Assembly: GCF_000004825.1 (NCBI RefSeq)
Contig: NW_008805076.1
Coordinates: 124,001-188,000, forward strand
Reading direction: 5' to 3'
From: Heterostelium album PN500
Lineage: Eukaryota > Evosea > Eumycetozoa > Acytosteliales > Acytosteliaceae
DNA length: 64,000 nt
Under the pieces are notes generated by a model. It worked only from the letters and a program-made list of their open reading frames with translations, was not told the DNA's origin and ran no database searches. A program made the translations under genes and the position numbers. This document shows, piece after piece, positions 24,157-63,983 of the stretch (position 1 is the first letter of the stretch; each line of letters begins with the position of its first letter).

Positions 24157-24290
24157 TTACAAAATTGTGCATTATCTCTACCTTGAAAGTCATTTCAGGC
24201 CGGAATCCTGCAGTTTCATTTGAACTTTGTTGAGTAGAAGCACTTTGAACTATTGAAATTGATAGTTTCTTTTTTTACAGATGATTCACA
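24157..24290 (-). pseudogene. Decayed member of the CaaX small-peptide family
   Basis: The minus strand resembles the second exon of the family. It holds KKETIN-like, AGT-TCA-rich, ACTCAACAAAGT and GAAACTGCAGGATT segments, then TGC ACA ATT TTG TAA (CTIL plus stop) at 24171-24157. Frameshifts and stops separate the parts, and no MLH exon is found upstream. It lies just 3' of the second kinase, at the cluster edge. Confidence 0.65.
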
Positions 24291-24794
24291 AAAAGATGAA
24301 AAGATGTCAATAAATAGAGAATTTCATCCGCATGTTTTATTAATAGAATTATATCTCAGTTTTATTTTAAACAACCAAAAATAAGGTTGTTTTTTATTTT
24401 TAATATTCTTTAATATATAAATCAGATTGAAAGTATCAAATTCCACCAGATTCTTTTTTTAGAGAATAAAATTAAATTCATTTTATTTCGTCTGAAGAGT
24501 TCCTTCTAATTAAAACTCATTGGGTAATTTTTAAAAATTTAAGATGACTTAAATAAAAAGAAACATCCGATCATAATTATTTGTAGATCTTTTGTTCTTT
24601 AAATTAATAATATTTATTCTTTTCTTATATAATATTTTTTTTTCATGATTGAACTTCCTCAAACTTGTTTTCACTTAGCACTAAAAAATTCTTTTATTAT
24701 TTAAAATGTTATTTCTAATATGTTAAAAGTAGAGCAGTGACCTATTCTCCTGAAATTTGAAAGATCTGAGAATCTCTACATTTTAATAGATAAT
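24291..24794. other. Intergenic region
   Basis: 504 bp of A/T-rich DNA between the decayed peptide gene and the second kinase. No further feature recognised. Confidence 0.5.
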
Positions 24795-26423
24795 TCAATT
24801 ACTATTGGTGATGGTTTCAAGATACTGATTTAATAATAGATTTAATGATTCTATATTCTTTGGACTCAGATCCAACAATCGATGTATCAAGTCAATTAAT
24901 TGTTTTGAATACCTGAATTCCGAAATTTTAATTTCTCCTTTGGTTTGGAGTAGTTGATGATTATTTCGATCATCTTGATGACTGATCAATTTACAAAAAT
25001 AAAGTGTTAGTATCAAATGATAATAAATAATATTTTAAATAATGACTATTGAATATTTACCAGCATAATAATTTGAGAATTGTTGATCCAATTGAAAAGA
25101 TGTCACATGATTGAGCATATTGTATTATATTCATCTTTTCCTATTAATTGTTTATGGTTCGAATTTAGTTATAAATCTAATATAGATTTGAATAGTCAAT
25201 TCTATTTAATAGAATTTACTTACTGGTATATAACCTTGTGCTCCTCGAGTTGCATATAAAATTGAGTTTATAATGGATGGATCTGTTATTTCATGATCGA
25301 TACATTTCAAATTCAAAATCGAATCACCTTCAAGAATGTGTTCATTTGTATCTGGATACTCAATGATTGTTGATTCACCAATGAATTTACAATAGCCAAA
25401 ATCTCCAAGCATCAAAGTCAAATCATCTTGATCTCCACCAAAGAATACATTCGATGGTTTAATATCGCAATGAACAATTCCAAGTTTATCAAGATCCAAA
25501 AGAATTTCGAAAAGCTGCAAAATATATTTACGAATATCTGATTCTCTAAAGATTCTATATATATATATTCAAGTGGTTTGTTTGATATATAAATATATAT
25601 CAGTGTTCTTTCATTAATACATTTAGGCAAAATTTATAATTATACATACGTATTTAGATCAGTTAAACGTTTATACTCTTGAGCAAGATCCCCACCATGA
25701 CAATATTCAGTAACTAGATGAAAGATATGATTATCTTTATCATCTAAAAAATCAAAGAGTTGAACAAATCTTGGATTACCTTTGAGTAATTTCATTGCAT
25801 TGATTTCATTTAATGCTCTTTCATAATTCCGATTATCTTTATCTATATAATCAATTTTTTTATATACATACTTTGAATTGGTTGTGTTAGTTTAACAATT
25901 TTTAACTAATTCGATATCTAAACGACCTTACCAATCTCTGATCAGTACCACACACTAAATCTACTTGATTGATATGATTACTGTTTGTAAATCTTGATAT
26001 CGAATGATATTGTTTGTTATTAATGATAATCGATTGTTTGAAATAACTAAGATTGTGTTTGAATTGACATTTTGCAATATTGAATCTGTATGATTGTGAT
26101 TTGTTTAATAGCTCGATGCATATTGGTATCGCATCTAAATTTAATAGATTCGAGGGGTAAGAATATGATCTTATTATTATTAATTGATATTGAGTATCGA
26201 CTGTATCTGGTATTACTATCTCATTATTATTATTATTAATATTTCCTATTAATATGATATTACAGTATTGTTCATTCTCCTTATCTTTCATATGATTGTA
26301 AACTAAAACAATGAATCTATCAAATAAAGAATCAATATCAAATTTCAATACATTCTTTCCTTTGACTAATCTATCTGTTTCCTCGACATTATTTGTATTC
26401 ATTTTGAAGTGAATCTTATGCAT
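24795..26423 (-). CDS. Protein kinase-like protein with non-RD catalytic loop
   Basis: Five exons (26423-25932, 25870-25650, 25554-25224, 25140-25061, 24981-24795) close in phase to 436 aa. Residues 1-130 match nothing I know. The kinase domain starts around residue 135 with no clear Gly-rich loop. Visible motifs are YVYKK (Lys168/169, VAIK equivalent), a helix-C stretch with ERALNEINAMK, hinge TEYCHGGDL, catalytic loop HCDIKPSN (Asp268; Cys replaces the usual Arg), DFGYCK (289 on) and GYIPEK in the APE position. Catalytic Asp, Asn and the DFG Asp remain, so activity is possible without activation-loop phosphorylation. The exon 2 to exon 3 join restores TDLN-TIFRESDIRKYILQL exactly as kinase helix E requires. 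A second ATG at 26402 is possible. The gene sits inside the small-peptide cluster. Confidence 0.82.
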
Positions 26424-26481
26424 ACTAAAAGAATGATTTTTTTGGTTTTTATTATAAAAAATTTTTATCTTGCGACCAATA

Positions 26482-26570
26482 AAACTTAAAATTTTGATTC
26501 TGGATACAAAAAATCAAAATTTTTATTTTGGAGGTCTAAGACCAAAAAAACTTAAAATTTTGATTCTGGT
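26482..26570. repeat. 22-bp direct repeat pair
   Basis: aaacttaaaattttgattct plus gg occurs at about 26482-26503 and 26548-26569. It lies in the sequence that replaces the 3' half of the truncated peptide gene at 26639-26765, so it may mark the junk or insert that broke it. Confidence 0.5.
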
Positions 26571-26638
26571 TACAAATTTTAAGTTTTTCGACTTGATTGA
26601 TAGGTACTGGCATTGCCTTGGCGGCTACCTTATTGTCC

Positions 26639-26765
26639 TTAGACGTACAACACATATGATAAACCACTAAGATTAAGGTTTTCAAGATTTTCTATAATTT
26701 AGATACAATTTTAATATAAAATAAATATTTTAGTTTTTAAAATTTTTATACTTACTGTGCAACAT
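26639..26765 (-). pseudogene. Truncated CaaX small-peptide gene
   Basis: Exon 1 (26765-26756, ATGTTGCACA) and the start of exon 2 (from 26691) match the family: MLHKNLENLNLSGLS. After that the sequence switches abruptly to unrelated DNA and stops at 26639, giving only 18 codons. The rest of the leader, the variable tail and the CaaX box are gone. A TATA-like box and TTTTGAAC-type element are still present upstream (about 26845-26893 on this strand). Confidence 0.75.
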
Positions 26766-27470
26766 TTTCAAATGATTTTAAAATAAACAAATTTATATAT
26801 TATATAAATATTATATTTTCGAAATATCTAAATATATTTAAAAGTTTTGATTTGTTTTCAATAATAAAAGTTCAAAATTTTCAATATTTATAATAAAGAA
26901 ATCCTTACTCCCAAAAAAAAAAAACTTAAAATAGTGTCATTTTTATAAATATATTTATTTGAAAGAAATTAACTTGGCACTATTCAAAGATGGTTAGAGG
27001 AGATTTGATTGAAATAATAGGTTTTTAAATATGAAATTAAAATATTATATAATTAAGTAAAATTCTGTGATTTAAATTACTGTCGTACATTACCAAATTT
27101 AATAAGATTAAATGTAATTTGGGTGTAGGTTTTATTTCCTTTACCTCACCATTCTTTTTTTTTTTTTGATCACAAAAACACTAATTTTTTATATTTTTTA
27201 AATTTATAAAAAACTGTCAAGGGAAAAACAATTCTAATAATTCTTTCTTTTGTAAATGTTTTAATGAAATCATGAAAATAAAAAGTTAATAAAAATATAG
27301 AAATTGTAATTCTATATATTAATTTATTTGATTGATGAAAAAGAGTATATAGAAAATATAAAAGAGAAAAAAATGAAATTAAATATATTGTTTTTAGAAA
27401 ATAACATTATTCTTTTATTTTTTGTTGATTAAATAAAAATTATTTAATTGAACTTTGGAGATATCTTTAA

Positions 27471-27743
27471 TTATAATATTTGACAAACATTTACAGCTTC
27501 ACTTCTCAAAGATTCCCTCCACTCACTCGCCAAATCAGTTGTTCCATTGGTACTTTGATGAGTGGCAGTACTTTGAGAACTATTGATATTTATAGTTTCT
27601 TTAGTCAATGAAGATACACTGGATAAACTAAGATTTTCAAGATTTTCTTTATAAATTGGTAAATATTTTAATTAATAAAAACACATTTTATAAATTTCTT
27701 TTTAAAGATTAGTTAGTTTAATAAACTACTTACTGTGCAACAT
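27471..27743 (-). CDS. CaaX small peptide precursor, 61 aa (CQIL)
   Basis: Exon 1 is only ATGTTGCACA (27743-27734), followed by a GTAAGT donor. Exon 2 runs 27646-27471. The join gives 61 aa starting MLHKNLENLSLSSVSS, then KETININSSQSTATHQSTN, a charged tail (SEWRESLRSEA) and final CQIL. A cysteine, two aliphatic residues and a terminal Leu form a CaaX box expected to be geranylgeranylated. No signal peptide or membrane helix. Same gene layout as its neighbours at 28586 and 29478, all on the minus strand. Product function unknown; a prenylated peptide or small membrane-anchored protein is inferred. Confidence 0.82.
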
Positions 27744-27800
27744 TTTCAAAGTCTATTATAAAAAAAATAATTATTGAATTTATATTCTTTTATCTTGATT

Positions 27801-27846
27801 GATTTTATTTGATTCCTTAAATGTTCAAAATTCTTTGTATTTATAA
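27801..27846 (-). promoter_or_regulatory. Shared upstream module of peptide gene at 27471
   Basis: On the minus strand: TTATAAATACAAAGAATTTT, then GAACATTTAAGGAATCAAAT. The same order of elements precedes the other family genes at a similar distance (about 60-100 bp before this ATG). Confidence 0.65.
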
Positions 27847-28585
27847 CAAAGAAAGGAAGATATAGATGTCAATAAAATTTTATTAATAATTTAATTTTAA
27901 AGAGAATAAGATCTCCAGATTTAAATTTCCAAAAATAAATTCTATTATTAGGTTTTATATTTAATACTAAAAATGTTCTTAAAATTCATTCCTTTAAGAA
28001 TTATTGAGATAGAATATATGTATTTATAATAGCTTTGATTTTCTCTTTTAATTGAATTCCTTTTATTTTTTTCATTTTTAGCTCTTACTAAAAAACAATA
28101 ACTGAGATCAATGAAATATTTTTATTATTATCATCATCTCTCTTATGATAATAAACGAATCTAAATCTATTATTTAATCTTTTTATCTAAATTTAATTTT
28201 AATGATATTTGATTAATAGAAATTTATTTATAAATGAACATGTTATTATATAAATTTAGAGAATATTGTTAGAAATAATAGTTTATTCTTGTAGTTGTTG
28301 ATGTACAATTAAAAGAATTGGTGAGTTTAAGTGAGATGATGATTTGATTTCAAACAAGAACCTATTATAATCGATCAGAATCGCTGGTATCTAGATATAT
28401 TTCTTAAATAATAAGAAAGTTGAATTTTTAAATACATAATTAAAAGTTGAATTCTTAATTAATCAAAACAAAATTAATAAAATAGATGATAGGAAAGATG
28501 AAAATAAAAGGGAATGTTGTTTTTGGTAAGTCGAACCAAAAAAACATTAAAATTTATTCTTTGATTGATTAATAAAATTATTTAA

Positions 28586-28847
28586 TTACAAAATAGAACA
28601 AGTTTGTTTGTTATCAAGCCAGATTTTACCTTCTCCGAAACCAGTAGATCCATTGATACTTTGACCAGAGGATGCGCCTTGTGAACTGTTAACATTGATA
28701 GTTTCTTTGGTTAAAGATGATACACTATTCATATTAAGATTTTCAAGATTTTCTTTTAAATTTTGATAAAAATTAAATTAATAAACAAACTTTTTAAATT
28801 CAATATATATTTTAGTTAAAGTGAATAAACTACTTACTGTGCAACAT
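28586..28847 (-). CDS. CaaX small peptide precursor, 58 aa (CSIL)
   Basis: Exons 28847-28838 and 28752-28586 give 58 aa. The leader is MLHKNLENLNMNSVSSLTKE followed by TINVNSSQ, almost the same as the neighbours. The middle differs (GASSGQSINGSTG) and the tail is KIWLDNKQTCSIL. The CSIL end is a CaaX box, probably for geranylgeranylation. The donor GTAAGT and acceptor AAAAG are conserved. Function unknown. Confidence 0.82.
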
Positions 28848-28900
28848 TTTCAAAGTTTTTAAAATAATACCTATAATTGAATTTATATTCTTATTTATCT

Positions 28901-28948
28901 TTTTGATTGTTTTGATCTTAGAATGTTCAAAATTCTTTGTATTTATAG
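28901..28948 (-). promoter_or_regulatory. Shared upstream module of peptide gene at 28586
   Basis: Minus strand holds TATAAATACAAAGAATTTTG directly followed by AACATTCTAAGATCAAAACA. Nearly the same as the module at 27801-27846. Confidence 0.65.
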
Positions 28949-29477
28949 CAAAAAATTGTTCACTTTGTCCTAATAAAAGATAAATAAATATCAATTTATA
29001 GATGATAATAATTTAAATTTCTACCTCCTCCTCCTTTTTTAATTTTAATAAAAGATTGATATCTCCTATTTTGAAACTACTAAATTTAAACTCTATTTTG
29101 TTTTTGCAAATTGGTATTGGAAATATAAACAGTGTTTTTAAATAAACAAATTTCATCTCAAATAAGTCATTGATTTTTAAAATATTTAATCATAATAATC
29201 ATTATTCTTAATCTTAAGATAAAAATAATATTGATTGGGTTAAAATAATAAAAAAATTAATAAATTTAGTATTGAGAACAAACAATAAAATTGTATTTAA
29301 TATAATGCTTTTTTAAAACTGAAAAAAAAATTTATAAATTTTGTTTTGATTCATATATAAAGTAAGAGTAGATTGAAAACAAGATGTATGAAAATATCTA
29401 TATATAAAATAATAATTTTATTCTTTTTTTTGTTGATTAAATAAAAAATAAATATGTTTATAAATTAAGTCAAACTA

Positions 29478-29703
29478 TTACATTATTACACAGGCCCACT
29501 CTTCGGAATGAAATCCAGCATTTCTATTGGTACTTTGTTGAGTAGCTGCACTTTGTGAATTATTTACTCTTATAGTTTCTTTGGTTAAAGATGATACACC
29601 ACTAAAATTAAGGTTCTCAAGATTTTCTATAATTTTTGATAAAATTTGATTAAAATTTAAATAAATGATTGGTTTTATATATTTTTTACATACTGTGCAA
29701 CAT
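29478..29703 (-). CDS. CaaX small peptide precursor, 52 aa (CVIM)
   Basis: Exons 29703-29694 and 29626-29478 give 52 aa. It has the MLHKNLENLNFSGVSSLTKE leader, then TIRVNNSQSAATQQSTN and the tail GFHSEEWACVIM. Terminal CVIM is a classic farnesylation-type CaaX box. The donor here is GTATGT rather than GTAAGT. It is nearly identical in protein to the gene at 61928-62155, 32 kb away on the opposite strand, which ends GFHSEEWTCVIM. Confidence 0.83.
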
Positions 29704-29779
29704 TTTAGAAAGATTTAAAATAAATATCTATTTAATTTAAAGTTTTAGTATTTTCTTTTTTATTTGATTGTATTATTGT

Positions 29780-29817
29780 TTTGATTCTTTAATGTTCAAA
29801 ATTCTCACTATTTATAC
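29780..29817 (-). promoter_or_regulatory. Shared upstream module of peptide gene at 29478
   Basis: Minus strand: TATAAATAGTGAGAATTTTG, then AACATTAAAGAATCAAAA. Same order and spacing as in the other members. Confidence 0.65.
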
Positions 29818-31067
29818 TAAGAAATCCTTTTTTCAAAAAAAATAGGAAACAAGTGTCAATGTATTTTTATTAATATATTTAATTTATTTGAAACTATTCA
29901 GTTTTTGGTCACTTTTCAAAATTCGTGATTATGATCTACCAAATAATAGGTGTGCAAAGAAAAACATATCAACTTAAAAAATCAAAAGAATTACACTCAA
30001 TATGTATATATCTTGAATTTTAAAAAAACTAAGAATAAATATATATCTTTCATTTCCAAATTTGGTATGATTACACACCTAATTTTTGAGTAAGGTATTT
30101 TTTTGATCAGATGAGTGAACACTATTTTCTAAATTGTACAAAATTCTGTGAAACAAATTATTTTTTGTGTGTAGTGAGGGTGAAATAATTATTTTAAACC
30201 TTAATTTTAAAAAAATGATTGGTTTTCAATTTATATCTACATTGTTGTTCTTTATTTTAAAAATAATAAGCTTGTTTTAAGATTTGTTTTATTAATACAT
30301 GCATTAGATCTTAACTTATAAGGTAATTGATTAAAATAAAAAGTTTAACTAAAAAATTATGATATATTTATATATGGACTGTTGACGAAGCTTTAGCTTA
30401 AATCAGAACTTTACAAACTCTTTAAATAATTGAATTATTATTAATCCATAAATCAATTCTACTATTTATTAAACGTGATACCATTACTAAAGAGAAAGAA
30501 TTGATTAGGAGAAATTTAAAGTTGGATAATTATTTCTAAATGTATATTCTTATATATCTTTTTGGATTGTTTGATTTGATTTTATTCTGAAATGTTCTTA
30601 ATCATCTATTTTAAATACCTATAATGAGTGATTTTCTAGTAAACCCTTTTATTGCTAACTTAAAGCAGACGACTATTTAGAGATACAACACAGACCATTA
30701 TTTAGCAGCACTGAGGCCACAATCTTCATCCTCGCCAAGTAAGCTATAAATGAAGTTATAATGAAATTCTTTTACACCATCTATATCTACAAAACTCTTC
30801 TAATGTAATTCATTTGCCTGTTAAATGAAATTAGATAAATTTCAAAGAAATTAGAGTTATAATACAAATATATAAATCAAATAAATAAATTAGTACAAAT
30901 TTATTAGATCTTTTTTTTGTTTTTTTTTGTTTTTTTTTTAACCAGATTAAACTTAAGTTTTGTTTTTTTTAAAAATTAATTTAAACAGGGGTGAAGTCAG
31001 TAATCTGATGATCTAAACTGATTAAAAAGTTTAAATAACTTATACCAAACTAAGAGAGAATATAACT
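29818..31067. other. Intergenic region with a possible orphan peptide-gene promoter
   Basis: 1.25 kb A/T-rich. At about 30573-30620 the minus strand has a weaker version of the family module (ATAGG-TATTTAAAATAG, AAGAACATTTC, AGAATAAAATC) with no MLH exon after it. A less AT-rich patch at 30660-30740 has no useful frame. Poly-T tracts lie at 30911-30970. Confidence 0.4.
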
Positions 31068-32962
31068 ATGTTAAATAATAATAGTAATAATTTTTTAAGG
31101 TCCACTATTAATAAATATATTACTAACAGTGGAAAAAGAATAGTTTCAAGTGCAAGATGTAATAACTACTTAAAAATAAACAAAAACAATAGATTTAATC
31201 ATGATCAATACAACTTTAAAGATCAATCAAATAACAATAATCAACAACAACAACAATCAAAGTTTAATCTATCGAATATATTTACAATTTCTGTAAGTTT
31301 TTAAAAATATAACTGAAAATAACAAACAAACAAATAAACAAAAAAGTTAAACTTTTATCACTTATTGTTATGTTATATAGTCAATTGGAATATGTTTAAT
31401 AGCAGGTGGAACAGCAAGTCTATTGGATCAAAATCAAATTAAAATACCAGTTGAAGCGATGAATGAATTGAAATCGTTGCTTGGTGATCGTGTTGATCTT
31501 TCGAAAGGCGATATAGAAGCACATGGAAAAGATTTCAGTTATCATCCACCACACAATCCAGAGGCAGTTGTCTATCCAAAGACCGAGGAAGAGGTGACTG
31601 GCATCATCAATATCTGCTCCAAGTACAATGTACCGATCATTCCATACGGTTCCGGCACCAGTCTAGAGGGACACATTCACGCTTACCACGGTGGTGTCTG
31701 CATTGATTTCCGTCTGATGAAAAAAGTGATCAAGTTGGAGCTAGACGACTTCCACGTAACCGTTCAGCCGGGAATCACCTACGACGAGCTCAACGAAGAG
31801 CTACTGCCACACGGCTACTTCTTTGCTATGGATCCAGGACCCGGTGCATCTATTGGTGGCATGGTCGGAACCAGCTGCTCGGGAACACACGCCGTCAAAT
31901 ACGGCACCATGAAAGACAATGTTTTGGCACTGAGAGTGGTGCTCCCCGATGGCCGATTGGTAAAGACGCGAACCGTCGCCAAAAAGTCGTCGGCCGGCTA
32001 CGATTTGACACATCTGTTCATTGGCGCCGAGGGAACTCTCGGTGTAGTCACCGAAGTCACTCTGAAAATTCACCCGCTTCCTGAGAGAACCGCCGTCTCG
32101 CTAGTCACTTTCGACTCGATTGAGGATGCCTCGAAAACAGTGATACAAACGATGCAAGACGGCATTCAAATTGGTCGTGCTGAACTGCTGGACGACGTCA
32201 TGTTGAAAGCTGTCAATCTGAGTAACGATACACAGTTCGAGGAGGTTCCAACATTGATTTTCGAATTCACAGGATCACCTGCGCAAGTGGACGAACAGAT
32301 TCTCAAGGTAGAGTCAATCTCTGCAAAGAACAAATGTAATAAATTCACATTTGCAACCGATCCAGTCGAAAGAGAGAAACTATGGTTTGCAAGAAAAGTT
32401 GCTCTCTGGAGTGCAACCACATTGAAACCTGGCAACGAAGTTTTAATCACCGATGTTTGTGTTCCAATTTCACAACTATCGAAAATCATTGTAGAAACAA
32501 AGAAAGATATTGAATCAACTTCATTATTAGCACCATTAGTTGTATGTTAACTAATTTATTTATATTATTAATATTTAATTTACTAATTATAATTATCTTT
32601 TTTTCAGAGTCATGCAGGTGATGGTAATTTCCATCTTTTCGTGCTATTCGATCCAAACAATCAAAAGGAATTAAATGAAGCAAAATCTTTGAGTGATAAA
32701 CTAGTTCATAGAGCATTAGAAATGGGTGGTACTTGTACAGGTGAACATGGTGTTGCTGTAAGTTATCATTATTATTATTACTATTTGTAGAGTTTATAAA
32801 TTATTAATAATCTTTTAATTATTACAATTAATTATATAGCTTGGTAAAAAGAAATATTTGGAAAAAGAACTAGGAAAAAATGCAGTGGATTTAATGAAAA
32901 CTATTAAAAGAACAATTGATCCAAAGAATATTATGAATCCAGGAAAAGTAATTGATGTTTAA
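31068..32962 (+). CDS. ldhd: D-lactate dehydrogenase (cytochrome), mitochondrial
   Basis: Four exons (31068-31292, 31381-32541, 32608-32757, 32840-32962) close in phase to 552 aa. FAD-linked oxidase family: PEAVVYPKTEEEVTGII and PYGSGTSLEGH mark the FAD_binding_4 (PCMH-type) domain. VQPGITYDELNEEL, DPGPGASIGGM and GAEGTLGVVTEVTL follow, and the C-terminal SHAGDGNFH and GEHGVALGK motifs are typical of LDHD and GlcD enzymes. The first ~75 residues are Asn/Gln/Arg-rich with few acidic residues, fitting a mitochondrial presequence. Expected reaction: D-lactate to pyruvate with electrons to cytochrome c. A D-2-hydroxyglutarate dehydrogenase role is less likely from these motifs. Ends 84 bp from the convergent aminopeptidase gene. 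Confidence 0.92.
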
Positions 32963-33046
32963 TTAGTTTGGATATTTAAACAAAATAAATAAAAAGGATA
33001 AATTAAGTTATATTATTATTATTTTAATTTATTTTTTAATTGTTTT

Positions 33047-35148
33047 TTAGAGACCTAAATCTTTGGCAACCATCTTTGAACAAATGTTGTGATAGAAATT
33101 TCTGTGGGTGGTAAAGGTGGAGACAGCCAATTCTCTGTTGACTTTGTTCAACTCACGGTATAGTGGTCTGACGAATTTCATTCTACCTTGTTCGACGAGG
33201 AATTTGGCAACCAATGGTTGGATTCTGGTGATTCCCGATTGCAAACAAAGACTGTACCACTTGGCACGATACTCGGCGTTACGAGTCTCGGTGAGGTGAT
33301 AGAGTTTGTCCATCTTCTCGATGGCGTCGACTGGCAAGTGATCGTTGGCAGTCAAAACCAAGAGTGTGTCCAAGAATAGAATGGTTTGTTGTGAGTTGAA
33401 CGCTTGGAAGTCCGAGGCACTCTCGATACCGTCACCCTTGGTGGCGATCCATTTCTTGGCCAACTCTTTGGCTTGCTCGGCCAACTGACAGGTGAAAGCG
33501 ACCTGGTTGTGTGGCATACCTGGGTTGTTGAACCACGACTGCCAGTCGACGACGGCGATGGCGTCGGCCATTCCCTTCTCAGTGAAATAATTGATAAAGT
33601 AGTTCTTCATTTGTTCGGCGGTGATCGATTGGTAGGCAAAGTGAGCGATGTATGACTTGAGCCAAGCTTCAAATTCGGTGACTCCAACCAAACTCTGGAG
33701 ATAGCAGAGCAAGTTGAAACCTTTGTCGTATGGCACCGAGCTGAAAGCATCGTCTGGATCGATACCGTCGAGATTTGGACGGAGAGCGGTCAGTGGATTG
33801 GTGGCACCGAATTGGTCGATGTCGTCCTTGAGGTGTTTCAAACCGTTGATCGCTTCGAATTGGAACATGTCCTCACCGTAGAGACGACCGATAATCTTAC
33901 GCTCGACAAACACAGTGAAACCTTCGTTCAAGAAGAACTCGGACCAGAAACGATTGGTAACCAAATTACCGCACCATGAATGGGCAATCTCGTGAGCGAT
34001 GACATTCTCGAGAGAACGGTCACCAGCCAACAAAGTTGGAGTGACAAATACCAACATTGGATTCTCCATACCTCCGTATGGGAATGAGGGTGGAAGCAAC
34101 AAAATATCGTAACGCTTCCAGATGTATGGAGTCAACAATGATTCACCGGTTTGAATGAACTTCTCGGTATTGGCAAATTCATAGGCACCGCTATCAACCA
34201 TCTCTGGCTCCGACCATACCATTGTTCTTGGTCCAATTTCTCTTGATTCTAAATGTCCAACAACAATTGCAATTAAATAAGTCTAAAAATATATATATAT
34301 ATAATATCATGTTAATATAAAGTATTATTCTTTTTTCTAATCAATTCTAAACATACTGGAATTGCAATATCTTGGTCAAAAGTATAGGTAATCTTGTCAC
34401 CATCAACTTTCTTTCCAGTGGAGGAAGCGCTCATCAAAGCAGTCAATGGAGCTGGAACAGTAATTTCAGCAGAGTACTTGACTTTGTTTGATGGACTATC
34501 TTGACATGGAACCAAAGATCTAGCATGAATACTATAATTATTTCCAAATAATAATAAAAATGAAAAAGGTTAGTTTTTCAAAACTAATTCGTGTTCAATT
34601 GTTCAAAATTGACATATTATCTGTTTTGTTTTTAGAAAAAACACATACGCTTGACATTGTGAGAACAAATATGGATGTTGTTTACCAGCAGTTTGTCTAT
34701 AAATAAAATAATGTTTTGAAAAAGGTTAGAGATGTGAATATTTAGCTAAATCTATCTTTAATCTAGTCTGTCTGTTGTTTGTTTATACTTACTCTTTTGA
34801 TAACCATTGAAGAGCAGTAGATTCAACGGTGGTTGAATAGTGTACACGAGCAGTGAATGTCTTGTTGGCACCACGTTGTTCTTGTGGAACTTCAATGACG
34901 ATGGCAGTACCAAAGATTTCGTGTTTGGCAGCAAGGTGATACTTGATTGGTTGGTTTGACAAATCGGTGACACCAGTGACATTCAAGTGATTGCTGTCCA
35001 ACTTTAACTCTGAGACTTGGTCGTTTTGGAGGGTGGCAACGACATCGACGTAACCAGCCAAACACGACTTGGCAAAGTCTACAGTCAATACCAAGTGCAA
35101 AGAATCAACTTTTGCCTCTGATGGATTCGATAGTGATGATGGATCCAT
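33047..35148 (-). CDS. lkhA: Leukotriene A4 hydrolase-type M1 aminopeptidase
   Basis: Four exons (35148-34793, 34696-34649, 34531-34357, 34282-33047) close in phase to 604 aa; human LTA4H is 611. M1 zinc peptidase signatures are GGMEN (residues 263-267) and HEIAH-x18-E with His290, Glu291, His294 and Glu313 as zinc and catalytic residues. The N-terminal beta domain and the C-terminal helical domain (from about residue 450) have the lengths expected for LTA4H rather than longer M1 enzymes. The animal enzyme hydrolyses leukotriene A4 and cuts tripeptides. In an amoeba the aminopeptidase activity is the safer prediction. Exon 2 is just 48 nt. No signal peptide, so cytosolic. Confidence 0.93.
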
Positions 35149-35766
35149 ATTTTCTAATTATTTATAAATATTAATATTATTATTTCTTTTTCGAAAAAAT
35201 GAAATTAATCTAACAAAAAAAAAAAAGGGTGAACACATTTATTGTCAGCAACATCAGATTAGATTTTTCAAGAGAATTTTTTGTCCAAAAAAGTCAAATA
35301 AAAAATAGTTTTTTTTAATTTTTACTATTATTTTTAGATACAAATCTATAAAATATTATTAGATTATTATTTAGATAGAAATTATTTAATCTTTGATTTG
35401 TCAAAGTAATCAATCAAACAATATATTTATTCTCTAAAAACATTTTGAGATATAAAAAAAAAAATTTTGGTAAAAAAAAAAATGAAAAAAAAAAAATACA
35501 AAGTCATCTGGTCATTTAAGAGTGGTGCTGATGTTAATACACTGAAGTGGTCAGAGTCAATATATTATGATTTATTTCGGTTCATTTTTTTTTGATATCA
35601 ATTTATAAAAAGAAAAGTTAGTTGTTGTAATTTTATTTATTATTATTGTTTGTTATTAATTAAAAAAAAAAAGTAAAGTAAATCTTAAATCAATCGATAG
35701 ATATATACCACAGTTCATTTTATTAGTGATCAGTTAATATATATATAAAAGCGAAAGAAATATATA
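35149..35766. promoter_or_regulatory. Divergent intergenic region, aminopeptidase/COPI zeta
   Basis: 618 bp between divergent genes, so it should hold both promoters. A/T runs dominate. A less AT-rich patch at 35500-35575 (around ggtcatttaagagtggtgct) is the only distinctive part. No gene seen. Confidence 0.5.
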
Positions 35767-54275: not shown

Positions 54276-54293
54276 ATAAAATATCTGTTATTT

Positions 54294-55939: not shown

Positions 55940-56296
55940 TTGTTACTCTATTAATATTATTATTATTATTACAATCGTTTTTTAAAATAATATAATTAAA
56001 TAATCGATTGATAGATTTTTTTTAATCTATCAATTATCTCACAACAGTGGGTGTTGTGTTACCCAAAAAAATGTCTTTCATTGTTTAAAAAATCTGCAGA
56101 TAATTCATTATCTGCCAACTCATCTCACCACCAGGACGATCTAAAAAAAATCTTTTTGAACAATGATATTTAAATATTTATTTAAATAATATATATTATA
56201 AAGAATGAAATTAAAATTCAATTTTTTTATTTAAATTATATATTTAAATTAAAATTGCAAATTAATGTAGAGTTTGGTTGTTTGTTTTGTTTTAGA
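55940..56296. promoter_or_regulatory. Promoter region with perfect 20-bp inverted repeat
   Basis: 357 bp upstream of the CoA-transferase. 56096-56115 is GCAGATAAT-TC-ATTATCTGC, a perfect nine-base inverted repeat with a 2-nt spacer, in a patch less AT-rich than its surroundings (56040-56150). It could be a factor-binding site or hairpin. Confidence 0.45.
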
Positions 56297-57115
56297 TTAT
56301 AATAATAGATATTGACTCTCTTTTAAAGGATAATCTATTTTATCAGAGAATGTTGAGAATAACATTGAAAGGATGGTCGATAGAAAAGTTAGACCTGTTG
56401 AAATACATATACAAATCCAACCTGTAGTCGGATGCCAAATATGTTGTTTGTTATTTCCAAAAAAGTGATAGTGATGCTCTTCATCACAGATTGCATCATT
56501 GCTGCCACTATTACTACTTGAATGTCCATCGGGATCGATATATCCATGATCTATACAATCTCTTCTCAAACTTTTTGGTATACCAACAAATATAAAAGTT
56601 GAAAGAAAACAAAAGAAACAAATTACCTAAATAAAATAAAAAAATATTAATCAAAAAATAAATAATAATGTAACAATATAGTTATTATTACTTACCATTG
56701 GTGTATATTTTGTAAGGGTAGTTAATAATTTACTTTGTTGTACTTTTTCATGGTAGATACATAATAGCACCAATACCATTCCAAATGCTGTGAATACCCA
56801 GGCAATTATAGCAAAAGAAATCGAAGCTTCAAAGAGTTGCATTGTATATTTATTGGTAGAGTCCCAACCTTGATAATAAGTTTCATCTTTTGTTATATTC
56901 TTAATCCAATCATATTTATAATATAATTGTACATTTGTAGATTTCTCTTTAAAAGTCCACCAATATGCTATCCAAAAAAAAAATAAAAATTATTAATATC
57001 TTTTTTAAAAATAATATAAATAGTTTTTTAAAATCTTACTTGAAAGTGATACAATTAATAATATAAATGATATAAATAATGTTACCAATACAGAAATATT
57101 TACTTTTTGTTCCAT
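56297..57115 (-). CDS. Four-TM membrane protein
   Basis: Three exons (57115-57040, 56967-56696, 56626-56297) close in phase to 225 aa. Four hydrophobic helices: VTLFISFILLIVSL (TM1), ISFAIIAWVFTAFGMVLVLL (TM2), VICFFCFLSTFIFVGI (TM3) and TGWICICISTGLTFLST (TM4). The first extracellular loop (~60 residues) has Trp-Trp and a WDST motif. The second loop carries CIDHGYIDPDG and CDEEHHYHFFG, with two cysteines and a His cluster. The tetraspan/claudin-like layout suggests a surface scaffold, but no diagnostic CCG or GLW motif is present. Function unknown. Confidence 0.8.
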
Positions 57116-57866
57116 TTCTTTGAATTTTTTTATCTTTTCAGAGTTTAATATAACAAAAATTTTATTTTACAACTAAATTAATTTATAGGATATCCCTAAC
57201 TTTGAGTTATCGATTCTTTATTCTCTGGGATTAGTTACCGCATCTCCATGACATTTATATTTATACTTAATTAAGCTTAAATGTCAATATACAATTCAAT
57301 TTAAAAAAGGGGTTACATATAAATTTTGATCATATTGTCTAAAATTTTGGCAAAATCAATATTTTTTTTTTTTTTACAGTTACAATCGTTCTTTGGGTTG
57401 TATTAGAACCACAACCAAAAAGATCCACCGAAATATTCTTTTAATATTACTAACCAGGGATATTAAAAAGTTAGATCAAGAAACCTATTTTGAATTTTCA
57501 AAGAGGTATGAATATCTATAAATATAACTCTTAAAATTGTTGTTTTTATAAATTTTAAGAATTCATTCATTTATTTACTTTACGAATTACTTTCTTACAC
57601 ACATATTTGACAATGAATTATAAAAAAAAAAAAAGGGTGTTATATATTAATTAATTACTAATCACCCCATTAAAAAGACAATCAATCAGTGTTGTGGGTG
57701 TGTGAAAGCTTTTTTAGTCCGATTTAAATCAGTACTTTTTATTTATATTTTGCGAAAGTTTTTTTTTTTTCCTTTTTGTTTTTTATTTATTTTAAATGAT
57801 CAATGATTGTTTATAATAATAATAATAGATTATTTTTATAAATAAATACAACAACAACTTTTAAAA
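57116..57866. promoter_or_regulatory. Divergent intergenic region
   Basis: 751 bp between the four-TM gene and the saposin gene. Patches at 57190-57260 and 57385-57480 are less AT-rich; the second has GGTTGT/ACAACC able to form a short hairpin at 57397-57415. The rest is A/T-rich with a T run before the saposin ATG. No gene seen. Confidence 0.45.
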
Positions 57867-59096
57867 ATGTATAGTTTAAAAAAGAATAAATTTGTAGTTT
57901 TATTGTTATTATTTGTATTATTAGTAGATTGTGGTGTTTATTCGGTTAGTGTTAAACAAAGAGAGAGCAAAGAGAACAAAGAGAACAAAGAGAATAAAGA
58001 TGATAAAGTCGAACTTTGTAAATTTCTAGTTGGATATATTAAGGGTCTTGACAATTCAGAGGATGGCAAAGTCATTGAACGTCAACAGATCAAACAGGAA
58101 CTCAATGAAGTCTGTCACTTCATGCCAGATCAAATGAGTGAAGTTTGTTATAACATGTTATCGAAATCCGACTTTTCGATAGTTGAAGACATTCTAGATA
58201 GAAAGTTATCGTCCAATGACATTTGTGATAATAGTGATAAATCATTAAAAATTAAACAACCACAACAACAAAAACCACAACTACCAAAAAAACCAAAACA
58301 ACAACAACATCAAATTATAAATAGAATTTCAACAGATAGATTGGAATGTAATCTTTGTAATTTCTTGGTCAGTCAAATAGAAGGATATATTCAGAAGAAT
58401 CAAACCGAAGAGGAGATCATTGCTGATCTCGAACAGAGTTGTAATATTCTTGGATCAATGTCCACCGATTGCAAAGAGCTGGTAGCCGACTACATGCCCG
58501 AGGCAATCAAAAGAATAATGAATAAAGAGAGTCCAGATGTTGTTTGTACTGAAATTGGAATTTGTACACCAACAACTACTACCACAACAACTAGCAGTTC
58601 TTCAACTACAGGCGGATCCAACCCAACATCCAAGTCACACTCTGGATTCGAGTGTCCATCATGTGAATACCTGGCAGGTCAAGTCATCACCTACTTAAAA
58701 GAGAATCAATCGATATCGACAATGCTACAGGAGTTGAATACCGATTGTCAGGTTTTCAGAGATCAATCTTGGATTCATATCTGTCAAAAAGTTGTTGCTG
58801 AACACGGAGAAGAGTTGATTAGAGATGTAAGAATTTCCAAAAGTCCGTCAGAGGCGTGTAAAATGGTAGGAATATGTGGTTCAACAACTTCATCATCATC
58901 GTCATCGTCGTCATCCTCGACATCCAACAGCGGATATAGTAGTGGTGGTTCGACAGCAACTTCAGGAACTTCAGGTACATCCGCCTCTGGAAGCGGTGGT
59001 GGATATCTCTCCGGAAGTGGTAGTAGTGGAAGCAGCAACAGTGCAAGTTCAGGTGACAGTGGAACTGGTTATGCCTATCGCATGACCATCAACTAA
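57867..59096 (+). CDS. Secreted protein with three saposin B-type domains
   Basis: Single exon of 409 aa. Signal peptide: MYSLKKNKFVVLLLLFVLLV. Three saposin-like domains follow at about residues 48-125, 155-230 and 268-335. Each has the CxxC or CxFL start and paired cysteines (LECNLCNFLVSQIEGYI to VVCTEIGIC; FECPSCEYLAGQVITYL to EACKMVGIC). The first is more divergent (ELCKFLVGYI, DICDN), with four or five cysteines. Gln/Pro/Lys and Thr/Ser linkers separate them, and the tail is Ser/Gly-rich. Saposins help lysosomal lipid hydrolases or, in amoebae, include pore-forming amoebapore-like proteins. The long linkers suggest processing into single units. No GPI or membrane tail. Confidence 0.9.
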   Translation: MYSLKKNKFVVLLLLFVLLVDCGVYSVSVKQRESKENKENKENKDDKVELCKFLVGYIKGLDNSEDGKVIERQQIKQELNEVCHFMPDQMSEVCYNMLSKSDFSIVEDILDRKLSSNDICDNSDKSLKIKQPQQQKPQLPKKPKQQQHQIINRISTDRLECNLCNFLVSQIEGYIQKNQTEEEIIADLEQSCNILGSMSTDCKELVADYMPEAIKRIMNKESPDVVCTEIGICTPTTTTTTTSSSSTTGGSNPTSKSHSGFECPSCEYLAGQVITYLKENQSISTMLQELNTDCQVFRDQSWIHICQKVVAEHGEELIRDVRISKSPSEACKMVGICGSTTSSSSSSSSSSTSNSGYSSGGSTATSGTSGTSASGSGGGYLSGSGSSGSSNSASSGDSGTGYAYRMTIN

Positions 59097-59342
59097 AAAC
59101 CAATCATTTTAAAACTCCACCCCCTATTACAAAAATTATTTTATTGTAATAAATAAAATACATTAATTTATATCATTATCAAAGATCCAATCTTTTTGAA
59201 CATAAACCATGAATCATTATTTTCATTCTGGATTAATTAATTAAAATACTTGCTTCAAATCTTTTTATTGAATTACTTTGAAGGTTTATTTTAGACAAAT
59301 TAAGACCCTTGTTGAATATTAACATAAAATTTCCTTTGGACA
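59097..59342. other. Intergenic region
   Basis: A/T-rich 3' region of the saposin gene; no feature seen. Confidence 0.4.
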
Positions 59343-59999
59343 ATGAATCAATATCTTGATTGTACAGGCAACTATAATACAGCCAATAATGATTTCAACG
59401 GTGAATCAATTTTAAAGGATGTTTCAAATGGTTTAAATGTTGTTACTGTTGATCAAGTAACAGGAGACTCATATGAAGATAATTTTAACACTGCCAATGA
59501 TGACAAAGAATGGAATAGATTCCTTCTTTTCATCCAATCATTGAAAGTTTGTACTTTTGTTTTGATATCCGTCCAAGATTCAATTGGAGATATTAATAAC
59601 ACTTCAGAAAGTCGCACCCCACTTATTTCAGTTTTTACAAATTTGGAATAATAAAAAAATAAAAAAAAAATGTGAAAAAAAATTTGAAAAAACAAAACTG
59701 AGATTCTTGCAAGGGGGTTCAAAAGTACCTGCTATGTTTACCTATATTTGGTGCTTTATTTTCAATTATTTTTATAAAAAACATGCCAACAATGTGTGAA
59801 ATAGGGGTTTAAATCATTTTTTTAGACTTACGAGTCCCCGGAGTGAAGCAATCTCAAAAAGATAATAAGAATCGCATTCTCTTTGATTGGTGCAACTAGG
59901 TGTATCTATTTTGTAAGTTCATTGGGATCAGCATTTGAACAATACAGTGTTAATGGTCAAGTTTGTGTTTCATCTTGGTAACTTCCTTCAATTCTTGAT
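59343..59999 (+). pseudogene. Decayed ILEI/FAM3-domain protein gene
   Basis: The open frame 59343-59651 contains GLNVVTVDQVTGDSYEDNFN, then EWNRFLLFIQSL and VCTFVLISVQDSIGD. This is the core of an ILEI/FAM3 domain (VVVID-G-V-D--FDTY, then a helix and VLVAVQD). The domain's last part appears ~200 bp later in another frame: RIAFSLIGATR, then SSLGSAFEQYSVNGQVCVSS ending at 59997. Between them lie stops, A runs and a TGA, though a TTTTTAG at 59825 could be an acceptor. No signal peptide or start context is seen. A recent pseudogene or a gene with unresolved introns. Confidence 0.5.
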
Positions 60000-60600
60000 G
60001 GAACTTAAAAATATGGAGAAACAACGTTATATACTGAGCAGAGTATATTTACAATTCCATCATTTAATAACCCTTAATTAATAAAAAAGCTAATAAAAGT
60101 ATAAATTTTAATGTATTTTTAAAAAAAAAGAATTAAATTAAATTCTTAAGATATTGAAAAAATTATTAAAAAAAACATTTTTAATTTCTCCTACAATGTT
60201 TCAAAATTTTTTATAGGTGTGATCAAAAATGGATCTTCCCAATAATTATTTATAAATAAGTTTTTAAATCTAAAATATATCACTATTTATTTATGTTTTT
60301 AATATTATTAAATAATCTATTTTGTATTAAGATAGTTCTTTGAATATAAAATTTTTTTAATTTTAAATTGATTTTGTGAATACAATTAAGGTTTCAAAAT
60401 TATAAATAAATTTTAGAATTAAATTTATAGGGGTATTTTGTTTTAATATTAGTAAATGAAACTAATTTTTTTTTGATTTAAATAAGGATTCTATTGGAAT
60501 TGATCGTGATACAATAGAAGAAAGATTGAATTATAATAAAACCTAAAATAAAAATTGGGTTATATAATTAAAAAAGTCTGAAATAAATCTATTTCTCTCC
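60000..60600. other. Intergenic region
   Basis: Strongly A/T-rich, no coding character or repeat recognised. Confidence 0.5.
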
Positions 60601-60642
60601 TTTAAATACAAAGAATTTTGATCATTTTAAGAATCAAATCAA
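60601..60642 (+). promoter_or_regulatory. Shared upstream module of peptide gene at 60702
   Basis: TTTAAATACAAAGAATTTTG then ATCATTTTAAGAATCAAATC. Matches, on the opposite strand, the modules at 27801, 28901 and 29780; it starts about 100 bp before the ATG. Confidence 0.65.
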
Positions 60643-60701
60643 TTGAATCAAAAAAATAAATAAGAATTGGAATTCAAATATTATATATATAAATTTTGAA
60701 A

Positions 60702-60944
60702 ATGTTGCACAGTAAGTAGTTTTTTAACTCCTTTTTCTCAAATTTTGAAAGTTTATTTATTAAATAAATTTTAAAAGAAAATCTTGAAAACCTTAATTTT
60801 AGTAGTGTATCGTCTTTGGCTATAGAAACTATTAATATCAATAGTTCTCAGAGTTCAGTAACTCAACAAAGTACCAATGAAACAACTATATTTGGAAAGC
60901 CTTGGGCTCGACAGGAACACCCAAAGGGATGTTCGATAATGTAA
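60702..60944 (+). CDS. CaaX small peptide precursor, 58 aa (CSIM)
   Basis: Exons 60702-60711 (ATGTTGCACA) and 60778-60944 give 58 aa. The leader MLHKNLENLNFSSVSS is kept; LAIET replaces the usual LTKET. ININSSQSSVTQQSTN is followed by a variable, Pro/Lys-containing tail (FGKPWARQEHPKG) and CSIM, a farnesylation-type CaaX box. First member of a plus-strand cluster. No signal peptide. Function unknown. Confidence 0.82.
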
Positions 60945-61796
60945 TATTTAAATTAAATAATTATTTTTATTTAATCATTAACCAATAAAAAACAGTTTAT
61001 TTATAAAAAAACCTAAAAGCTTGTATGATCATGTCCAATCGGGTATTTAATTGTTTTTAAAATTTTTAATGATAATTCTACTTAATTTACTTCTTGATAA
61101 GTTTATTTTTGGTCTACCATACTCCTCCCCATCCTCTATAGACTAACTTTTCTTAAGAATTAGTAATTTTATGAAAGAAAGAACCATATTGGTAAAATTG
61201 TCATTGATAGTTCAAATATTCAACAATCGATTCCCAAATAACCTTAACAAAAAAATTAATAATTATTATCAAGAAATATAGAGTTAAAGTCCTTCTACAT
61301 TTAAAATACAATTTGATTACTTGATATCCACAATATCTTCATGTTTTGAAATATAAGAGTTTTATTTTGAACCTAGGTTTATATTCTCATGTAGAGTAAA
61401 ATTGTTTTTTAATTTTCTACATATCGGTTTTTTTATTAATTCAATTATTTATTTTAAAAGTTTGTTTATTAGAATAAGTATTTCACCCAAAAAACTGATC
61501 CAGTATGTGTTGTTTACTTTTTAAAATAGTGTAGTGAAAGAAAACACTAAAATAAGAATAACAAATGGAAATGAAACATATTTCTTATAAATTATATTTT
61601 AAAATCCTAGACCCAAACCTTTTTTTATTTCTTTTTTAAGTTTAATTTTTTTATTCTAAAAATCTCATTCAGATACATCACAATCACCAATTTGGCTGCA
61701 CCCACAAAACTTTTATTATTTCAAATAAATAAAATATATCGAAAAAATTTTATTGACTCCTGTCTATACCTTTTTCTTTGGTATGAAAGGATTTCT
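60945..61796. other. Intergenic region
   Basis: About 850 bp, A/T-rich. A slightly less AT-rich stretch at 61110-61150 has no useful frame. Nothing recognised. Confidence 0.5.
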
Positions 61797-61844
61797 TATT
61801 ATAAAAAGGAAACATTTTGAACTTTTTTAAGAATCATTTCAATC
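61797..61844 (+). promoter_or_regulatory. Shared upstream module of peptide gene at 61928
   Basis: TTATTATAAAAAGGAAACAT, then TTTGAACTTTTTTAAGAATC. TATA-like box, TTTTGAAC and AGAATCA in the family order. Confidence 0.65.
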
Positions 61845-61927
61845 AAAACTTATTGAAAATTCATTTAATTATATAAATATTATTTATTATTGAATTATAT
61901 AGATATTTATTTTAAAAACTTTCTAAA

Positions 61928-62155
61928 ATGTTGCACAGTAAGTAAAAAAAATAATTGAAACAAATATTTTAAAAAATAGGATATTAATTAAATTTTTGAT
62001 AAAAAGAAAATCTGGAAAACCTTAATTTTAGTGGTGTATCATCTTTAACCAAAGAAACTATCAATGTCAATAATTCACAAAGTGCAGCTGCTCAACAAAG
62101 TACTAACAGAACGGCTGGATTTCATTCAGAAGAGTGGACATGTGTAATAATGTAA
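61928..62155 (+). CDS. CaaX small peptide precursor, 52 aa (CVIM)
   Basis: Exons 61928-61937 and 62007-62155 give 52 aa: MLHKNLENLNFSGVSSLTKE, then TINVNNSQSAAAQQSTN and tail GFHSEEWTCVIM. Farnesylation-type CaaX box CVIM. Close to the minus-strand member at 29478-29703; the two tails differ only at one position (Thr versus Ala before Cys), so they may give nearly the same mature peptide. Confidence 0.83.
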
Positions 62156-62873
62156 TAAAAAAATAGCAATTTAATTAAAATTAAAATGTTAGAATAAAAA
62201 CCAAAGTTAAACCGAACATATTAATTAAAAATAAAGAAGAGTTGTAAATTTAAGAATAATAATCAATTTTCTCTTATTATTAAGAACTTTTTTATTATGA
62301 TGATTTTAACTTTTAAGAATCAAATCAAATCAAATCAAATAAAAAGGAATAATAAAAAAATGTGTTTTTTCATTTTATAGGTTGTGTTTTTATTTCCTTT
62401 TTTGAATTTTATCACTATTTTGCCAACACACACACTAAAGATGTTCAAAATTTTTTGATTTTTTGGGGAGGGATAAAATGAAAATACACAAATCAAATAA
62501 TTGATTATATAGTATTTTTCTATACTTTTAACTTTAATTTGTTTAACCCTCAAAAAAAAAACATAAATTTAGTTCCCCCAAAAAATTGATTCACAGGTTT
62601 TTGTTCATGTGTTCAAATAAAACTTACCCCAAAAATTAGAAAAAAATAACACTCTATATATTTTTCTTAATTTATTACCTGATTTGAATAATTGTGTTCC
62701 TAATTTATTTGAATCATGATTGAATCTTGAATATTAAAAAAGTTAAATTGTAAAAATAGTATTCTACTATAATCATTGAGATCTCAATCACCAATTTTGC
62801 CCAAAAACCTGATAATTTCAATTAAATTTTATATATAACTTTTTATTGAAACTAATTTATCCTGTTTTATTTA
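62156..62873. other. Intergenic region with a possible orphan promoter module
   Basis: About 720 bp. At 62290-62340 there is ATTATGATGATTTTAACTTT followed by TAAGAATCAAATCAAATC, similar to the family module, but no MLH exon follows. The rest is A/T-rich. Confidence 0.4.
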
Positions 62874-62919
62874 TTATAAATAGGATGAATTTTGAACATT
62901 TATTAGAATCAGATCAAAT
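62874..62919 (+). promoter_or_regulatory. Shared upstream module of peptide gene at 62980
   Basis: TTATAAATAGGATGAATTTT, then GAACATTTATTAGAATCAGA. Starts 106 bp before the ATG. Confidence 0.68.
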
Positions 62920-62979
62920 AAAAAAAGAAAATAAAGAATATAAATTCAACTAAAAGATATTATTTTAAAAACTTTTGAA

Positions 62980-63229
62980 ATGTTGCACAGTAAGTAGTGG
63001 AATCACTTTTACTAAAATAACTTTATTAATTAAATTTTTTTCAAAATTTAAAGAAAATCTAGAAAATCTTAATATGAACAGTGTTTCATCTTTAACCAAA
63101 GAAACAATCAAAGTTAACAGTTCACAAAGTGCTGCTACTCAACAAAGTACCAATGGTTTAACTTATAGTATGGCTGATGATTGGTGGGCATATTTGAATA
63201 AACCTCAAGGAGACTGCACAATATTGTAA
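62980..63229 (+). CDS. CaaX small peptide precursor, 61 aa (CTIL)
   Basis: Exons 62980-62989 and 63054-63229 give 61 aa. The intron also happens to be open in another start frame, so an unspliced reading from 62975 exists; the spliced form is preferred because every member shares it. Leader MLHKNLENLNMNSVSSLTKE, then TIKVNSSQSAATQQSTN, a Trp/Tyr-rich tail (DDWWAYLNKPQGD) and CTIL, a geranylgeranylation-type CaaX box. Function unknown. Confidence 0.83.
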
Positions 63230-63640
63230 TAATTTTAAATTACAATTTATTAAATAAAAATTTTTATTTAATCAACAAACAATAAATAAATATTTATGTT
63301 TAAATTTTAAAAATCGTAGTCTATTGACAAAATTCAATATAATTTATGATTTTTTTTTTTACAATTTCTTAAATAATCTTTTATAGGAAACATTCATTCA
63401 ACTTCTAGAGTGAAAAACCCTTCTAATTATATAAAAAACAAATTATTTTAAAGATTCTATCTTTAAATTATAAACAGATCAGAATGTTAAAATGACCTCC
63501 CTTAAAAAACTAAAAATAATTTTAAAAGAGAAGTTTATTGGATGATGAAAATAGAATCTTGAAAATAGCAAGTTTAATTTAGAATTTAATCTAGATTTAA
63601 TTTAAATTTATTGAAATCAATGTATCCTATTTTTTATGAT

Positions 63641-63679
63641 TATAAATACATACATTTTGAACTTTTTAAAAATCATATA
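63641..63679 (+). promoter_or_regulatory. Shared upstream module of broken peptide gene at 63731
   Basis: TATAAATACATACATTTTGA, then ACTTTTTAAAAATCATAT. About 90 bp before the ATG. Confidence 0.6.
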
Positions 63680-63730
63680 AAAACAATTAAAAAGAAATAT
63701 TCAAATTGATAGATATTTAAACTTTTGAAA

Positions 63731-63983
63731 ATGTTGCTTGGTAAGTATAACAGATTTTCTTTAAATTTTAAAAAAAATCTAATTAAAAAATTTAAAGAAA
63801 ATCTTGAAAATCTTAATTTAAATAGTTCAAAAGAAACTATCAATTTAAATAGTTCATAAGGGTCAAAGTACTAACGGAACAACTGTACTCCCAATCCAGT
63901 ATTGGACTAAAGATCAATGGGAAAAATACGGAACATTTGGTAACCAATACCTATATAGTAAAAGTTCCTGTGTAATATTATAA
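63731..63983 (+). pseudogene. Broken CaaX small-peptide gene (CVIL)
   Basis: Exon 1 is 63731-63740 (MLL instead of MLH) with a GTAAGT donor; exon 2 starts at 63798. The leader is shortened (NLENLNLNSSKETINLNSS) and hits TAA at 63857-63859. Compared with the member at 28586, the site fits a C-to-T change plus an 11-bp deletion. After the shift the old frame resumes with QSTNGTT, a long Tyr/Trp-rich tail and SSCVIL at 63983. A sequencing error cannot be ruled out, but two lesions together favour real decay. Confidence 0.7.

Follow-up and report, generated by a model that had tools for sequence, protein, structure and literature searches.

The DNA analysed here is a 64,000-nucleotide stretch of the genome of the dictyostelid Heterostelium album (the window). 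It contains six intact two-exon genes for micro-proteins ending in a CaaX box, located at 27.5-29.7 kb on the minus strand and at 60.7-63.2 kb on the plus strand, together with relics of further copies. The loci are as follows.

g27, 27471..27743, minus strand: exon 1 27734-27743, intron 27647-27733, exon 2 27471-27646; 61 aa, CQIL
g28, 28586..28847, minus strand: exon 1 28838-28847, intron 28753-28837, exon 2 28586-28752; 58 aa, CSIL
g29, 29478..29703, minus strand: exon 1 29694-29703, intron 29627-29693 (GTATGT donor), exon 2 29478-29626; 52 aa, CVIM
g60, 60702..60944, plus strand: exon 1 60702-60711, intron 60712-60777, exon 2 60778-60944; 58 aa, CSIM
g61, 61928..62155, plus strand: exon 1 61928-61937, intron 61938-62006, exon 2 62007-62155; 52 aa, CVIM
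g62, 62980..63229, plus strand: exon 1 62980-62989, intron 62990-63053, exon 2 63054-63229; 61 aa, CTIL
r26, 26656..26765, minus strand: relic in which the promoter, the first exon, the intron and some 12 leader codons survive
r63, 63731..63983, plus strand: relic with exon 1 ATGTTGCTTG, a 57-nt intron and a shortened leader with a stop
r24, 24157..24289, minus strand: relic with partial leader and tail in a broken frame
Core promoter element of g27, 27819..27845, minus strand: TATAAATA-N6-ATTTTGAACATTT

Gene structure and copies

Exon 1 of the intact genes is 10 nt long and identical in all six. It is followed by an AT-rich GT-AG intron of 64-87 nt (n = 6), with the donor GTAAGT in every gene except g29. 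In silico splicing gave the products and C-termini listed above; these ends and lengths (52-61 aa) agree with the original prediction of six intact CaaX genes in two clusters. Upstream of exon 2, in its own frame, no ATG occurs before a stop or exon 1 is reached, so the full-length protein requires the splice. An internal methionine is present at residue 11 in g28 and g62. Each protein has a conserved, Ser/Asn/Gln-rich leader of about 37 residues. These two-exon genes, as judged from their sequences, very likely form a real family.

Three broken copies had also been predicted, and all were found in the window; a fourth relic, with first exon ATGTTACTCA, lies outside it at 96.5 kb of the same contig (C15), 27 kb away from the window. 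The claim of a shared exon 1 applied to the six intact genes and r26, which carry ATGTTGCACA, but not to r63, which has ATGTTGCTTG, or to r24, where the window scan found no match with one mismatch allowed. In r26 (intron of 64 nt), similarity fades past the leader codons and stops appear in frame. The tail frame of r63 reads CVIL and then a stop. In r24, CTIL is readable before two stops, in a frame different from that of the surviving tail stretch. Beyond these six genes and four relics, no further copy was found among the best-scoring candidates in the 32.9-Mb genome.

The promoter pattern TATAAATA-N3..8-ATTTTGAACWTTT had four matches in the genome, each at a family member (r26, g27, g62 and r63). 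Exon 1 had eight matches genome-wide. The one on contig C9 was judged to be due to chance because it is not followed by the family exon and sits within another open frame.

Chance could not explain the family as a whole. With one mismatch permitted, ATGTTGCACAGT matched the window seven times, all exactly and all at the six intact genes and one relic; 100 shuffles gave a mean of 0.38 matches and a maximum of 2. In C15:1-256000 (family included), stop-terminated frames of 25 aa or longer numbered 5,454; 35 of them had CaaX ends and nine had C-x-I-[LM] ends. A two-exon scan of these 256 kb of one contig, which used no family sequence but had exon, intron and donor limits set with the family layout known, produced 44 models; the 10 with a CaaX end all came from seven family loci. 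When each of nine other residues was substituted for Cys in the motif, the same scan gave no model with such an end. As the copies are related, these scan counts are not independent trials.

Variation and constraint in the leader, the tail and the CaaX box

The leader is constrained at the protein level. Its pN/pS was 0.23 in the true frame, against 1.25 and 1.98 in the other two, and none of 1000 column shuffles reached so low a value. Differences at the three codon positions numbered 67, 49 and 175, each of 555. A constant leader and a constant CaaX end had been predicted, and both held; the leader values support a protein-coding family.

The tail without the CaaX box had a pN/pS of 0.92 (0.88 and 0.92 in shifted frames), indicating no overall constraint. 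We do not claim positive selection on the tail, because its value equals those of the other frames. For the CaaX box pN/pS was 0.37, a value based on four codons.

The tails do not behave uniformly. In g29 and g61, tail DNA differs by 10% and the introns by 25%; in g28 and g62, the tails fail to align while the introns differ by only 12%. Alignment z scores for tail versus intron, which are somewhat unequal in length, were 11.1 versus 3.2 for g29/g61 (tail better), 2.2 versus 2.3 for g27/g60 (equal) and 0.3 versus 7.6 for g28/g62 (tail worse). The ranking thus changes by pair, and a uniformly hypervariable tail is the wrong description. The predicted variable tail stands in that most tails are different, but the g29/g61 tail has been kept. 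All six intact tails contain a tryptophan.

In all six intact genes the CaaX box is in frame with the stop, and C-x-I-L before a stop is still readable in both relics that keep their 3′ end (r63 and r24). Since the six intact copies lie within 36 kb, this retention is partly owed to shared ancestry. From these ends, the proteins are probably prenylated. A CaaX box ending in Leu is assigned to geranylgeranylation by the rule quoted in PMC9141697; as half of the members (g27, g28 and g62) end in Leu, a geranylgeranyl rather than a farnesyl group is predicted for them, and the other three (g29, g60 and g61) end in Met. Profile searches of the genome found, over cut-off, PF00432 (Prenyltrans) at three loci and PF04140 (ICMT), PF02517 (Rce1-like) and PF16491 (M48_N). 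Of 14 control genomes, the Rce1-like profile also matched 11 and the ICMT profile 5; by themselves, then, these two matches are no proof of CaaX enzymes. A Ras-type stable membrane anchor usually has a second signal beside the CaaX box. The usual second signal would be missing here, because each intact protein has a single Cys and only 1-3 K/R in the 12 residues before it, that is, no polybasic stretch.

Database comparisons and possible roles

The proteins are hydrophilic (the highest 19-residue Kyte-Doolittle mean was 0.65) and probably disordered. The structure model of the exon-2 part was unstructured, but at low confidence (mean pLDDT 52.5) and built from six sequences, so it is uninformative and does not prove disorder. 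Each of two weak Pfam matches, Peptidase_C93 (E 0.009) and DsbD_N (E 0.11), concerned a single one of the six members; like three solved-structure matches (E 0.28 or worse), they were taken as chance, and other Pfam membership is unsupported. Heterotrimeric G-protein gamma subunits are also small and CaaX-terminated, but no match to them or to a GGL domain appeared in Pfam or solved structures, and the low-confidence model had no helix. None of 13 candidates in the protein database was a relative at E up to 10; this says nothing about other dictyostelids, because a neighbour-gene control (7999 best candidates scored) retrieved the window's own protein alone.

From the sequences we infer splicing, prenylation, location, timing and role as follows. 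Each gene of this small duplicated family would yield a protein of 52-61 residues, the 10-nt first exon being spliced to give a product that has no obvious hydrophobic stretch. The only cysteine, in the CaaX box, would be prenylated, by farnesyltransferase in CxIM members and by geranylgeranyltransferase I in CxIL members, and the prenylated end would then be trimmed and carboxymethylated. The constant leader may be the common working or handling part, and the tail the copy-specific part adjoining the lipid. We favour, as the probable outcome, lipid-tagged proteins that stay at membranes; analogy to sigN suggests that they act in development. The main rival to such retention is release from the cell.

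Fungal a-type pheromone precursors mostly have farnesyl-type ends, and their mature peptide is conserved between copies. They resemble the present family in being short precursors with a C-terminal CaaX box (PMC3068285, in part), but belong to another kingdom, with no sequence relation shown. The predicted pheromone-precursor layout holds for the short CaaX precursor; three of six members end in Leu, however, and neither a receptor nor a leader-cleavage site was identified, so the layout is only an analogy. The conserved part here is the leader. If the proteins were exported in this manner, the leader would be removed and the prenylated, methylated tail transported out and sensed by a receptor, each tail type being its own signal. 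We consider this unlikely, though a serious alternative. The constant leader, variable tail and single CaaX Cys, the tryptophan in every tail, the absence of polybasic and second-Cys signals, the kept g29/g61 and unalignable g28/g62 tails, and the ICMT and CaaX-protease family matches would all suit it. Against it, no leader-cleavage site, receptor or transporter was identified, half of the members end in Leu, conservation lies in the leader and not in the presumed mature peptide, and amino-acid change in the tail is not in excess. The STE3 receptor profile had no match in this genome or in the control genomes and was therefore uninformative. Slightly less likely again is a social-amoeba lipopeptide signalling system unrelated by descent to fungal pheromones, in which constant leaders deliver several kinds of prenylated tail and the kept g29/g61 and replaced g28/g62 tails serve as different signals, used for instance to recognise kin, mating types or cell types.

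The remaining explanations concern ancestry or the nature of the product. PF05710, which we take to be the Pfam family covering hssA/sigN proteins, matched the same genome 12 times but none of the six members (E up to 10; HMMER filters discard most matches above 0.1). The sigN genes of Dictyostelium, as partly described in PMC2257962, share with our genes a tiny first exon, a single small intron (66-111 nt in the listed genes), clusters of near-copies and an N-terminal region better conserved than the C-terminal one; they differ in a 13-nt exon 1 and in products of 87-89 aa that are Ser/Cys/Gly-rich with a predicted transmembrane stretch. The words CaaX and prenyl are absent from the main text of that paper. 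The hssA/7E/2C family of D. discoideum, with nearly 100 genes, has a 13-bp first exon, a second exon of about 200 bp and developmental expression, and the passages on hssA mention no CaaX end (PMC6198379). A layout of this kind, with a first exon of another length, was already known in dictyostelids, a point on which the original prediction was silent (sigN, PMC2257962; tiny exon, hssA, PMC6198379, both in part). That the genes are a divergent hssA/7E/2C-sigN branch having acquired a CaaX end would accord with this layout, the Ser-rich products and the PF05710 matches elsewhere in the genome, but the first exon, the protein length, the single Cys and the lack of PF05710 in the members make it improbable. 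Frame-shifted hssA is reported still to suppress a culmination defect (PMC6198379, in part), as it might if the transcripts functioned as RNA with an incidental reading frame; we regard this as very improbable here, since the leader constraint is missing in other frames and no Rfam family was found at the genes at the gathering threshold. Equally hard to credit is the idea that the C-terminal motif is no CaaX box but a 3′ element conserved as DNA or RNA (roughly TGY-NNN-ATW-WTR-TAA). Eight 3′ ends are alike as DNA and the r24 motif outlasts its frame, but where the six intact genes vary, the changes keep phase with the stop and are synonymous, alter the first a or exchange L and M; with so few sites this argument is weak.

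No described family combining leader, variable tail and CaaX box was among the matches listed in the open-access literature, in line with the prediction that no similar dictyostelid family had been described. The family exemplifies genes whose exons are very short, a class that annotation methods reportedly handle poorly (PMC5282741, in part). If translated and prenylated, the proteins would constitute a compact lipid-tagged micro-protein set in a social amoeba, few enough for cluster-by-cluster deletion, and lipidated peptides would join the candidate signals of aggregative multicellularity.

Gene structure and members of the family

The window contains seven copies of the exon-1 sequence ATGTTGCACAGT, all exact; with one mismatch allowed, the expectation is 0.38. 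Six of the seven gave proteins of 52–61 residues once a GT-AG intron of 64–87 nt was spliced out in silico, and all six have a CaaX C-terminus. The original prediction of six intact members of this length, with introns of 60–90 nt, was borne out. These genes form two clusters:

27.5–29.7 kb, minus strand: g27 (ending CQIL), g28 (CSIL) and g29 (CVIM)
60.7–63.2 kb, plus strand: g60 (CSIM), g61 (CVIM) and g62 (CTIL)

A TATA box and ATTTTGAAC lie 5′ of the family genes. The promoter pattern TATAAATA-N3..8-ATTTTGAACWTTT had four matches genome-wide, each at a family member (two intact genes, two relics); the promoters of the remaining members deviate from it. Three broken members had also been predicted. 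All three were recovered, and the set was extended by a fourth relic outside the window:

24157–24289, minus strand: r24, leader and tail partly retained; C-T-I-L readable before a stop, in a frame different from that of the remaining tail stretch
26656–26765, minus strand: r26, still with its promoter, first exon and intron and some 12 leader codons
63731–63983, plus strand: r63, exon 1 altered, stop within the leader, tail frame ending C-V-I-L
96.5 kb on C15, the contig of the window: fourth relic, leader only

For r63, a later splice acceptor proposed by a mechanical scan could still give a CVIL-terminated protein of 46 residues. Searches at the DNA, protein and pattern level in the organism's own genome (32,926,113 bases, 39 contigs) found no family member beyond C15; these searches score the best candidates only, and the family counts are lower bounds. 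A lone exon-1 match on contig C9 was taken as chance.

Several other features were seen in the window:

1–702 and 3758–4666, minus strand: two reading frames with a long identical stretch in common, as tandem genes of a receptor-like type would have; Pfam ComC_SSD match in the second
14476–14565, plus strand: 90-nt tRNA match by Rfam, missed by ARAGORN, possibly due to an intron
25206–25568, minus strand: short reading frame resembling a protein kinase, downstream of r26 at a distance of about 1.2 kb
25902–26513, between the kinase-like frame and r26: reading frame without a match to any Pfam family
33047–34282, minus strand, between the clusters: Leukotriene A4 hydrolase-type M1 peptidase reading frame

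Coding constraint and the CaaX end

In the six-protein alignment, 25 columns are invariant. Of these, 22 fall within residues 1–37, as expected from the predicted conserved leader; the others are one Trp, the CaaX Cys and one Ile. Pooled over the six intact genes, the leader gave pS 0.453, pN 0.105 and pN/pS 0.23, compared with 1.25 and 1.98 in the shifted frames, and none of 1000 alignment-column shuffles was as low (minimum 0.30). For the tail without the CaaX box, pN/pS was 0.92, similar to the other frames (0.88, 0.92), and for the CaaX codons it was 0.37, from four codons with very few sites. All these pooled values are descriptive only, because the pairwise comparisons share branches.

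In C15:1–256000, where A+T content is 68.9% (joined 256 kb), 5,454 frames of 25 residues or more run to a stop codon, and 35 of them have a CaaX end. A small-exon gene scan, which used no family sequence but had its limits chosen with the family layout in mind, returned 44 models. Ten had a CaaX end, all at seven family loci (alternative acceptors included). The corresponding motif with the Cys replaced by S, T, N, K, E, Q, D, W or H ended none of the models.

Relations among copies and to known families

In a leader tree (~112 nt, 200 bootstraps), g28 grouped with g62 (support 72) and g29 with g61 (support 80), and these four were separated from g27 and g60 (support 70). Each pair has one member in each of the oppositely oriented clusters. 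With this modest support, the tree is consistent with an old three-gene set represented in both clusters. Outside the leader, g29/g61 are conserved in the tail (z 11.1), with z 3.2 in the intron and −0.4 in the 3′ flank. For g28/g62 the intron aligns (z 7.6), and tail (z 0.3) and 3′ flank (z 1.1) are unalignable. The g27/g60 comparison is weak in tail (z 2.2) and intron (z 2.3) and somewhat better in the 3′ flank (z 4.1). Among 28 tail pairs, relics included, the sole clear likeness was g29/g61 (z 11.7; runner-up g27/g62, z 4.2); the predicted tail variability is mostly borne out. These sequence comparisons fit copy-specific tails with one tail type kept, but conversion of the genes' 5′ half would give the same picture.

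The gene layout resembles that of dictyostelid sigN and hssA genes, in which the first exon is 13 nt in 89 of 96 sigN genes (PMC2257962) and 13 bp in hssA genes (PMC6198379). None of the six intact members matches the small-protein profile PF05710. PF05710 has at least 12 matches elsewhere in the genome, on contigs C2, C4, C7 and C16 and partly as opposed pairs, marking another family of small genes. No such CaaX micro-protein family was found among the open-access dictyostelid articles listed in literature searches; it may be annotated somewhere without a name.

Predicted processing of the proteins

Each protein has a single Cys, lacks a strongly hydrophobic stretch and carries one to three K/R among the 12 residues preceding the Cys. 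A structure model of the exon-2 part had a mean pLDDT of 52.5, and no structure was assigned. By the CaaX rule given in PMC9141697 (terminal Met, farnesyl; terminal Leu, geranylgeranyl), three of the six members are predicted to be farnesylated and three geranylgeranylated. The genome has profile matches over the cut-off to Prenyltrans (three loci), ICMT, Rce1-like and M48_N; of 14 control genomes, 5 also match the ICMT profile and 11 the Rce1-like profile. Judged from sequence, C-terminal lipidation would be the likeliest fate of these proteins, whether they are held at a membrane or exported.
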